From the NCBI GenBank assembly GCA_913051545.1, contig CAJXCD010000001.1:172863-236862 (forward strand): a stretch of DNA of 64,000 nt. Direction: 5' to 3'. The notes below the pieces were generated by a model, which searched no databases, was not told where the DNA came from, and worked only from the letters and a program-made list of their open reading frames with translations. Below, in pieces: positions 39,313 through 42,977 of this stretch. The stretch is from an uncultured Chloroflexota bacterium. GTDB taxonomy: Bacteria > Chloroflexota > Dehalococcoidia > Lucifugimonadales > CAJXCD01. The translations under genes were made by a program, and so were the position numbers. Every line of letters begins with the position of its first letter. Position 1 is the first letter of the stretch.

Positions 39313-40140
39313 TCAGGTGTATGCGCCTGGCACGATATGGTCCCCTAATAAGCGAAGTTGTCGAGGGGTTGCATTCGCAAGTAAGGTCTCATCAAAGGCA
39401 AATTTATTTAGGTAAGGAGGCATGCGCTGTGATATCCATCTACTCGAATAGTGTACCTGGACTAAATAACGACTCTTCGTACTATTATTAGCACTGCCGC
39501 GATGCCATATTTCACTGCGGAACATTACAACGTCCCCTGCGTTAACTATAACGCTTTGTTCTTTCGCACCGTTCCACTCCATCTCGTTTTCTTCAGGTGT
39601 CCTGCCTGCGCGGTGGCTGCCAGGGATCATTTTAGTTGGACCCAATTCTTCTGTTATATCATTTAGATAATAGTGTGCAGTGGCAATAAATATGGGTATT
39701 TTGACCCTAGGGTTAATAGCTACATCTGCTGGCAAGGGTATAGGAGACCAGTCAACGTGTAAGTGTTGATCTGGCCGTCCGGGGCCAGATCGCCAGGCTG
39801 ACATCCCAATTATGTGGCAATCTTCTCCTAGCGCAGCCTCAGCAAGTTCTATAACTCGAGGCCGATCAAGACAATTGAAGAAAACACGGTCTCGATTAAA
39901 TGCATTTTTTATATGGATACTGGTTTCACTGCGAGTATTACCAGACCACACTTCGTCCCCTGGGTCTCTGATTAAATCATTAGCTTCTGCAATAGGAGTT
40001 AGGCAGTCTATGGCGTCCCTAAGTTCCATAATCTCGTTAGCATTTAACATATTAGGTACGTAAGCATAGCCAGACTCTTCAAGGTCATGCAATCGGTCAT
40101 TAAGATTTTGGCGATCTCTAAGCAGTATGTTTTCTGACAT
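39313..40140 (-). CDS. Phytanoyl-CoA dioxygenase (PhyH) family protein
   Basis: 'GYAYVPNMLNANEIMELRDAID', 'DQHLHVDWSPIPL' (HxD), 'ELGPTKMIPGSHRAG', 'GDVVMFRSEIWHRGSANNS'. Confidence 0.9.
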   Translation of the reverse strand: MSENILLRDRQNLNDRLHDLEESGYAYVPNMLNANEIMELRDAIDCLTPIAEANDLIRDPGDEVWSGNTRSETSIHIKNAFNRDRVFFNCLDRPRVIELAEAALGEDCHIIGMSAWRSGPGRPDQHLHVDWSPIPLPADVAINPRVKIPIFIATAHYYLNDITEELGPTKMIPGSHRAGRTPEENEMEWNGAKEQSVIVNAGDVVMFRSEIWHRGSANNSTKSRYLVQVHYSSRWISQRMPPYLNKFAFDETLLANATPRQLRLLGDHIVPGAYT

Positions 40141-40240
40141 GGTATCTCCGTTTAGCGGCTCTTTATATAAACTGATTAGCTGACTATAGATTTAATGCGA
40201 GGGAATTTAGATTGCATATTTTTGATTTCCACAAATTCCG

Positions 40241-41062
40241 TTAGTTTTCCTCTGTGTTTTGCTTAAGGGTTCTAAGCAATGTTCTCACCTTGGCTTCTCT
40301 TAACGGGCGAATCATACTATGAATTCTTGAGCTTTTACTACTGGTAAAGGACGGATGAGGTTCAAAAATAGACTTGTAGCCTGAGTGTTTGATGAGCGAG
40401 CCAATCTCGTAATGAGTTGAGGGTTCCGCAGCGAATTTCAAGGCTATGTACCTACGGTTGGGAAAACTATCAAAAACGGCGTGGAACAGGCTTTGGGAGA
40501 AGAAAACTAAATCTCCAGGGGAAGATTCCAGGGAGATGCTCGGTACATCTTTCGAATTAATGCCAAGGCCGGGAATGGGGTTCTTTTTTTGTCTATCGTG
40601 ATTCGCTTGAAGGGGCCACAGGTCAGTGTGGAACGGCAATTTGTGAGACCCTGGTATTACCCTCAGGGCGCCTCGTTTCACGGAAGTCTTGTCGAGGTAA
40701 ACTATTGCCTTTAAACGAGGGTATTTGATTTCTTGGTCACCAGGTCTGTCTGCATGCCAGTAGTGCTGTTTGTGGGAAGTAATGTTCCCTTCGGAGCCCG
40801 CCCATATAAAATTAGGGCCTAATATCTGTTTCACAGTATCAAACACCTTGTCATTCTCAACCATTCGTATTAAATCAGGAGCTTTCTCAACGACCGCCCA
40901 GACGCTTTGCCCTGTCTCGCTTAAAGGTGAACCATCTCTGTCTTGTAGGAGAACGTTATCAAATGCCTTGGTGATGACGTTCATTTCCATTTCAGAAAAA
41001 GCTTGCCGAACCACAACAAATCCGAAGGTGTCGAAATGGGATTTCTGACCACAAGAAAGCAT
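40241..41062 (-). CDS. Phytanoyl-CoA dioxygenase (PhyH) family protein (divergent paralogue)
   Basis: 'HFDTFGFVVVRQAFSEMEMNVI', 'HYWHADRPGDQEIKYPRLKAIVYLDKTSVKRGALRVIPGSHKLPFH', 'PGDLVFFSQSLFHAVFDSFPNRRYIALKF'. Confidence 0.88.
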   Translation of the reverse strand: MLSCGQKSHFDTFGFVVVRQAFSEMEMNVITKAFDNVLLQDRDGSPLSETGQSVWAVVEKAPDLIRMVENDKVFDTVKQILGPNFIWAGSEGNITSHKQHYWHADRPGDQEIKYPRLKAIVYLDKTSVKRGALRVIPGSHKLPFHTDLWPLQANHDRQKKNPIPGLGINSKDVPSISLESSPGDLVFFSQSLFHAVFDSFPNRRYIALKFAAEPSTHYEIGSLIKHSGYKSIFEPHPSFTSSKSSRIHSMIRPLREAKVRTLLRTLKQNTEEN

Positions 41063-41161: not shown

Positions 41162-42061
41162 TTGGGCCAAGAACGTTGGTATAAAGGGAGCTTGCATGCC
41201 CATACTACTGAATCTGACGGAGACTACCCTCCAGAAAAGGTTGCAGAATGGCATCGGAACCATGGTTATGATTGGCTTGTCTTAAGCGACCATAACCTTT
41301 TAACCCGACTAAAAAAACATTTGAGTACGCCACTGATGGTTCCGGGTGAGGAAGTAACAGTAAATCTTGAAGGTCAGGAGAAAGCAGTCTACGTAAATTC
41401 TGTGGGTATATCCAAGGTTGTACAGCCAGTTGACGGAGGAGATGTGCTCGGCACGTTGCAGAAGAATGTTAGTGCAGTTTTAGAAGCAGGAGGGATGGCC
41501 TCATTGTGTGCCCCGTACTTCCGACCAGGCTTTGACCATGAATCATTGAAAAAGGTGACCGGATACCGCTTTATTGAAGTATTTAATGCACATCCGTTAA
41601 ACGTGCATGGAGACCCACGCACGTTTAGTTACGAGGGTATTTGGGATGCGATTTTGAGTTCCGGTCAGTTGGTTTACGGGACTGCAACGGACGACACACA
41701 CAATTACAAAGACTATGGAGCTGATAAGGCTAATCCAGGTAGAGCGTGGGTAATGACTAGGGGTGTAGCATTGACGGAAAAAACCATTCTAGAGAGTCTT
41801 TATAGAGGAGATTTTTATTCATCTACAGGTGTGGTTCTAAACGACATAGAAATTACCAACAGCTCTATTTCTGTAGAAATCAAACCGGGACTAATGCAAA
41901 ATTTTGTCACAACATTCATTGGAAGTGAAGGTCGCGAGCTCAACCAACAGTCCGGTCACAAAGCTACATATAAAATTCAAGGCGGAGAAGGCTATGTGCG
42001 AGCGCGCGTGGATTCTTCGGTAGGGTCCAGGGCATGGATACAGCCCGTTATTGTTAAATAA
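41162..42061 (+). CDS. PHP-domain metal-dependent phosphoesterase family protein
   Basis: 'KGSLHAHTTESDGDYPPEKVAEWHRNHGYDWLVLSDHNLL', 'IEVFNAHPL', 'YGTATDDTHNYKDYG'. Confidence 0.85.
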   Translation: MGQERWYKGSLHAHTTESDGDYPPEKVAEWHRNHGYDWLVLSDHNLLTRLKKHLSTPLMVPGEEVTVNLEGQEKAVYVNSVGISKVVQPVDGGDVLGTLQKNVSAVLEAGGMASLCAPYFRPGFDHESLKKVTGYRFIEVFNAHPLNVHGDPRTFSYEGIWDAILSSGQLVYGTATDDTHNYKDYGADKANPGRAWVMTRGVALTEKTILESLYRGDFYSSTGVVLNDIEITNSSISVEIKPGLMQNFVTTFIGSEGRELNQQSGHKATYKIQGGEGYVRARVDSSVGSRAWIQPVIVK

Positions 42062-42140: not shown

Positions 42141-42977
42141 ATGATGCACTATGCTGACCCGAAATTCATTTCTGAGGGATTTAGGAGAGAACTCCGTCAC
42201 ACGGAGCCAGTATGTTTAGGCGAAGGGGTAATCAAAATTAGCTTGCAGTATCAGGATGTGGTAAACGACCAGGGAGTATCAGTGGAAGTCATCGGACAGG
42301 AGGAAGGGTCCGAAGTGTCAGTGCTAAGATACTACTGTTACGACCACGACCCGCACTATTTTTATGGACCTGAGAGCAAAGGGGATCGGAAGAACATAGA
42401 TAAAGTCACAGATGGTGACCCGTTGGAATGGGTGATAGGGCAACTTGAGAAGCGATTTAAGGCTTTAGTGGTTCGTGCCGGATACCCAAAAATCGCCGAC
42501 GCGATAGATATTAAGACTATTGATCCATTGATTGCTACAGTGGGTGTAACCGCTCGCCAGATAGCAACCGACGAAAGATCCACCGTTAAACATAACAGGG
42601 GAGATATAGTTCTTGAGGCAGGCCCTGTCAGATTTGGTGTTGAGGATCGTGAGCCGGGAATAGCTATTCACGTTCTTGGTGATGTAATGGGTGAAGAAAT
42701 TGAGCTGTTGGCTTTCGATTGTTTTGATATTGACCCACACTATCACTATGGACCAAGAAATAAAAACAAAAGACTGTATTTAGATACTGCGGCCAATCCA
42801 GACCCTCTGAATTGGTGTTTGGGCTTACTCAGGGGGGGCAAATTGGCTCCAATGCTTCAGCATGCTGGTTATCATGACCACGCAGCTCGCCTAAACCCGG
42901 TCGTAGTTGCCTCTACGGTAATTGAACTAGAGAAAGTGGCCAAGGAAATGCAACATACCAGGGGTGAGCGTCCCTGA
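42141..42977 (+). CDS. Protein of unknown function: two tandem copies of a DPHYxYGP-motif domain
   Basis: 278 aa. Copy 1 'VEVIGQEEGSEVSVLRYYCYDHDPHYFYGP...DPLEWVIGQLEKRFKALVVRAGYPKIADAID' aligns with copy 2 'IHVLGDVMGEEIELLAFDCFDIDPHYHYGP...DPLNWCLGLLRGGKLAPMLQHAGYHDHAARLN'. Confidence 0.85.
   Translation: MMHYADPKFISEGFRRELRHTEPVCLGEGVIKISLQYQDVVNDQGVSVEVIGQEEGSEVSVLRYYCYDHDPHYFYGPESKGDRKNIDKVTDGDPLEWVIGQLEKRFKALVVRAGYPKIADAIDIKTIDPLIATVGVTARQIATDERSTVKHNRGDIVLEAGPVRFGVEDREPGIAIHVLGDVMGEEIELLAFDCFDIDPHYHYGPRNKNKRLYLDTAANPDPLNWCLGLLRGGKLAPMLQHAGYHDHAARLNPVVVASTVIELEKVAKEMQHTRGERP

Follow-up and report, generated by a model that had tools for sequence, protein, structure and literature searches.

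The described families closest to the gene studied here are TumE (PF20126, formerly DUF6516), a group of toxins, and two Pfam domains, DUF7700 (PF24777) and DUF7718 (PF24839). TumE is an alpha+beta protein that is toxic to E. coli and inhibits translation; an RNase activity has been proposed for it but is unproven, and it has no confident match in the PDB (PMC10584680). The Pfam entry for DUF7700 carries no function, and we found neither a function, structure or experiment for any DUF7700 protein nor a paper naming DUF7700 or PF24777. We describe, from the present data, a tandem form of DUF7700 in which a conserved Arg-Asp-His-His quartet is divided between the two copies. The gene lies in a 64,000-nucleotide stretch of DNA (the window) from an uncultured marine Chloroflexota bacterium of the SAR202/Dehalococcoidia type.

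A tandem DUF7700 protein

The gene (42141..42977, plus strand, as are all its features below) starts with ATG and encodes 278 aa, and it matches PF24777 with 207 bits in two stretches. The N-terminal copy, with a degenerate site, occupies 42225..42542 (residues 29-134, E = 7.3e-28), and the C-terminal copy, which retains Asp-His-His, occupies 42612..42938 (residues 158-266, E = 4.7e-33). Scored separately by hmmscan, the halves reach 97.1 and 113.9 bits, respectively, well over the curated cut-off of 25 bits, and both cover nearly the whole profile. Both copies also have the residues that are invariant in relatives (Gly, Cys, Tyr-x-Tyr, Asp, and Trp). No family match for the protein was found in NCBIfam, PHROGs or PADLOC, and a sequence search of the PDB returned no match. 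The first-pass annotation had placed the protein in an unknown family; Pfam already holds that family under a name, although the domain is indeed uncharacterized. The window protein is thus an ordinary member of a known uncharacterized family, and what is new is the division of the quartet between its copies.

The first-pass annotation had also recognized two homologous halves and proposed a tandem duplication, quoting CYDHDPHYFYGP from copy 1 and CFDIDPHYHYGP from copy 2, which they do carry. The two halves share 38% identity over 72 residues (BLASTP: E = 1e-18), and since each half on its own also matches PF24777, the duplication stands far above chance. Between the domains lies the motif TVKHNRG (42582..42602, residues 148-154), which is near-invariant across tandem proteins (H151 in 58/58, R153 in 54/58, and G154 in 54/58).

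The predicted structure agrees with the duplication. An AF2 model of the whole protein (58-sequence alignment; pLDDT 90.5, pTM 0.73) has two similarly folded halves, where a model without two equivalent subdomains had been named beforehand as grounds for giving up the proposal. Each half is predicted as a six-strand antiparallel meander followed by helices, and the C-terminal domain modeled alone (residues 147-278, 87 domain sequences) reached pLDDT 94.6 and pTM 0.89. Foldseek searches of the PDB with the full model and with one domain gave no significant match (best E = 0.06, TM at most about 0.35), so the DUF7700 fold is unrepresented there at that sensitivity. Against viral structures the best E was 0.007, but with a TM of 0.24 this match is not meaningful.

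Division of the quartet between the two copies

Four positions define the putative site: Ala191, Asp193, His200 and His202 in copy 2, which correspond to Arg63, Tyr65, His72 and Phe74 in copy 1. Single-domain relatives have the whole quartet (Arg-x-Asp...His-x-His) in 21 of 22 cases. C-terminal copies read A/T-D-H-H in 89/89 and have Arg in 0/89, the lost Arg being replaced by Ala in 70 and by Thr in 19; in the window this residue is Ala191 (42711..42713). The stretch from Asp193 to Pro205 (DCFDIDPHYHYGP, 42717..42755) includes Asp193, His200 and His202, each present in 89/89 C-terminal copies. N-terminal copies keep Arg in 88/91 (Arg63 in the window, 42327..42329) and have D/E-H-H in only 60/91. 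Copy 1 of the window reads R-Y-H-F, with the Asp and one His gone: comparison with relatives places Tyr65 (42333-42335) at the Asp position, and in the motif DPHYFYGP (42348..42371, residues 70-77) Phe74 replaces the second His (HYFY). Other residues also distinguish the copies in a comparison of 58 proteins, with Glu168, Arg170, His177, Glu188, Arg211 and Asp215 invariant (58/58) in the C-terminal copy and Gln44 invariant in the N-terminal copy.

Part of our sample (loci L073-L152) came from a pattern scan with motifs containing [AT]FDCF and HYHYGPR and is therefore biased. Because the scan selected some of the quartet letters, we redid the counts with only those proteins that the Pfam HMM recovered by itself. 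Here N-terminal copies have Arg in 30/30 and Asp-His-His in 22/30, C-terminal copies have Arg in 0/30 and Asp-His-His in 30/30, and 20 of 21 single-domain proteins have the whole quartet. A divergent single-domain subfamily (L055, L064, L067, and L072) has a GHWH motif (FDCHxxxGHWH) in place of FDCFxxxPHYHYGP.

Judging from these alignments, retention is asymmetric, and the copies are not equal sites. The Asp/His/Tyr-rich motif of both halves had been taken for a possible paired site; this does not hold, as copy 1 of the window protein is without the Asp and one His and the C-terminal copies are without Arg in 89/89. What did hold is the conservation of the motif, on which the same proposal had been made to depend: that of copy 2 is strongly conserved among relatives. 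A tree built from 90 tandem proteins requires a minimum of two losses of the triad from N-terminal copies, one in a clade of 28 proteins (SH-aLRT 100) in which both His are gone, and one in the window protein together with L039 (SH-aLRT 98).

We favor, at a probability of roughly one half, the reading that the window protein is a tandem pseudo-dimer derived from one ancient duplication, with a divided quartet and one functional site mainly in the C-terminal half. Its single-domain ancestor would have had the site Arg-x-Asp-x(6)-His-x-His on a beta-hairpin, and one ancient duplication would have placed two DUF7700 alpha+beta domains in tandem. Of the two, the C-terminal copy would then have lost the Arg but kept Asp193, His200 and His202 together with invariant residues of its own, while in the N-terminal copy Arg63 and the invariant Gln44 would have stayed, and the Asp and one His would have gone in the lineage of the window protein. 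The resulting site would lie mainly in the C-terminal copy, with Arg63 and Gln44 perhaps completing it from across the domain interface. The anatomy, the family, the single duplication and the pattern of retention and loss are shown by the comparisons above and below; from them we infer that the protein works through the quartet, with only one such site, and that this site is composite. A conserved quartet divided between copies makes one working site likelier than two, and the window protein therefore probably has one site instead of two. Two caveats apply to this single-site reading. As 22 of the 30 HMM-found N-terminal copies hold the full quartet, both halves could be active in many members, the C-terminal copy then acting without Arg; and the invariant residues may be structural.

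The geometry of the C-terminal copy bears on another reading, in which Asp193, His200 and His202 would bind a metal as a 2-His-1-Asp site and the protein would serve storage, sensing or oxygenase-type chemistry. In the AF2 model, strands 185-195 and 200-203 form a predicted beta-hairpin with Asp193 and the two His on facing strands, and from the predicted registry Asp193 would lie opposite His202 with His200 on the same side. An Asp and two His so placed, and universal in C-terminal copies and single-domain proteins, would suit a metal, and some relatives lie near monooxygenase and dehydrogenase genes, though such genes are common in these genomes. A plain metal site, however, leaves unexplained why single-domain proteins retain Arg with Asp-His-His, and Foldseek found no metal-protein fold match in the PDB. 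We regard a metal-binding protein as possible but doubtful.

The divided quartet provides a short list of residues for mutation, and the natural series of single-domain, intact tandem and half-degenerate tandem proteins offers a test of whether one composite site is sufficient.

Comparison with TumE and DUF7718

DUF7700 resembles TumE in its conserved Arg-x-Asp...His-x-His motif and in an alpha+beta fold without a PDB match. The quartet is present in 50 of 51 TumE sequences and is whole in DUF7700 single-domain proteins (21/22), whereas in the window protein it is split over two copies. DUF7700 differs from TumE in lacking profile homology and an adjacent antitoxin gene, in having domains in tandem, and in the absence of copies on mobile elements among the phages, plasmids and viral contigs searched.

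It is unlikely that DUF7700 represents a remote offshoot of TumE (DUF6516), the RNase-type toxins, and acts on translation. Such an offshoot would account for the shared quartet, set on a hairpin-like motif with a helix after it, for a pattern (R.D.{6,7}H.H) that is rare in background proteins (3/1433), and for the alpha+beta architecture without a confident PDB match described for TumE too (PMC10584680). The profiles are less favorable. With hhalign, the most divergent DUF7700 single-domain proteins gave 60% against 13 TumE proteins in one shallow comparison, but only 6% over 22 columns against 51 TumE proteins, barely above shuffled columns, and other DUF7700 subgroups gave <2%; we consequently rejected kinship by profiles, as the 60% was gone once 51 sequences were used. 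Pfam scans of the window protein and of the divergent single-domain proteins gave no TumE match. The toxin reading is further opposed by the lack of a recurrent same-strand partner gene at DUF7700 loci, so that no two-gene toxin-antitoxin arrangement was found, and by the absence of plasmid, phage and viral-contig copies and of a PADLOC match. That DUF7700 works like TumE is a lead; that it is a TumE is not supported by these comparisons.

By this analogy DUF7700 proteins may be enzymes. Given that DUF7700 and the TumE family share the quartet, we tentatively suggest acid-base or metal-assisted phosphoester hydrolysis, possibly in RNA and not as a toxin-antitoxin module; since hhalign does not connect DUF7700 with TumE, this weak suggestion stands on a short motif. 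A bolder form, which we consider unlikely, would make DUF7700 an enzyme family not described before, whose fold is still missing from the PDB. In tandem proteins the half-sites (Arg from copy 1, Asp-His-His from copy 2) would build one composite catalytic center, single-domain proteins would form homodimers whose sites are whole, and TumE-type RNases would be distant kin.

DUF7718 has a comparable motif of its own (R-Y-D...H-R-D), and divergent DUF7700 single-domain proteins match PF24839 weakly and in register (0.002-0.025, 14.9-18.4 bits). These matches are, however, under the 25-bit Pfam cut-off, and hhalign gave at most 24%. A Pfam scan of the window protein returned no match to PF24839.

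Distribution and duplication history

DUF7700 is present in about a third of the sampled genomes in the order of the window (54/147), sometimes in multiple copies, in 13/400 genomes of its phylum, and in 11/95 genomes of the phylum that contains Rokubacteria. In the phylum of an alphaproteobacterial relative it is present in 1/398 genomes, the one being the center genome itself. The closest named relatives of the window protein come from uncultured Dehalococcoidia/SAR202 genomes (the best, L073, with 56% identity), and others are named as Tectomicrobia, Entotheonella, Alphaproteobacteria, Acetobacteraceae, and Gammaproteobacteria. Throughout the SAR202-type group, and here and there in Rokubacteria, Tectomicrobia/Entotheonella and Proteobacteria, there are tandem proteins of about 265-340 aa and single-domain proteins of about 130-200 aa, both kinds sometimes within one genome. 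No match was found in phages, plasmids or viral contigs. Two apparent fusions, L090 (961 aa) and L114 (563 aa), were rejected, as their extra parts look like spurious GC-rich open frames.

In a tree of domains, N-terminal and C-terminal copies form separate groups, and the identity between an N-terminal and a C-terminal copy is nearly the same within one protein (39%) as between different proteins (40%). Separate groups and equal distances point to one old duplication, and these sequence comparisons make a single ancient origin of the tandem form, followed by its spread, the most likely history.

Gene neighborhood

A PHP/CehA-type gene (41162..42061, plus strand; NF038032 CehA_McbA, 68.5 bits against a cut-off of 80) ends 79 bp upstream of the tandem gene on the same strand, as the first-pass annotation had stated, and from this proximity a joint function had been proposed. 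When the neighbors of about 115 DUF7700 loci are clustered, with those of the closest relative, L039/L073 (56% identity), among them, the PHP gene is a singleton, unique to the window genome. The gap and the shared strand are all that favor a phosphoesterase acting jointly with the tandem protein; with a PHP neighbor at no other of these loci, we judge the partnership extremely improbable and the gene to lie outside the system. Further upstream, two adjoining phytanoyl-CoA-dioxygenase-like genes (39313-41062, minus strand) were recognized by eye only.

No recurrent close same-strand partner was found across the roughly 115 DUF7700 genes. The neighbors that do repeat are ordinary metabolic genes (SDR, luciferase-like monooxygenase, MFS, PurH-type, SprT-like, and chorismate synthase genes). 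Many of these lie on the opposite strand, and they are confined to subclades, a pattern that fits local synteny there.

One genome, G273, raises the question of a partnership with carboxymuconolactone decarboxylase (CMD)/AhpD-type redox enzymes. There, a CMD domain and a single DUF7700 domain share one open frame of 313 aa (L212:1927-2868), the only convincing DUF7700 fusion seen, and at L206 a single-domain DUF7700 gene lies 26 bp downstream of a CMD/AhpD-type gene. These two cases are confined to G273, however, and CMD genes searched in 13 other DUF7700 genomes are never adjacent to DUF7700, which leaves such a partnership very unlikely.

In the CMD/AhpD-type gene at L206 (7859-8413), a TGA stands in frame where the CxxC motif would have its second Cys (C-R-H-TGA). 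Since a hairpin lies just downstream (z = -1.97) and G273 encodes SelB, the product of this gene is likely a selenoprotein; AhpD-like selenoproteins are already known (e.g., PMC1088965). Many CMD-family matches in eight genomes (G006, G065, G142, G233, G273, G368, G507, and G534) have exactly one in-frame TGA and in no case TAA or TAG. This pattern suggests that CMD proteins containing selenocysteine are widespread among SAR202 and related Chloroflexota.
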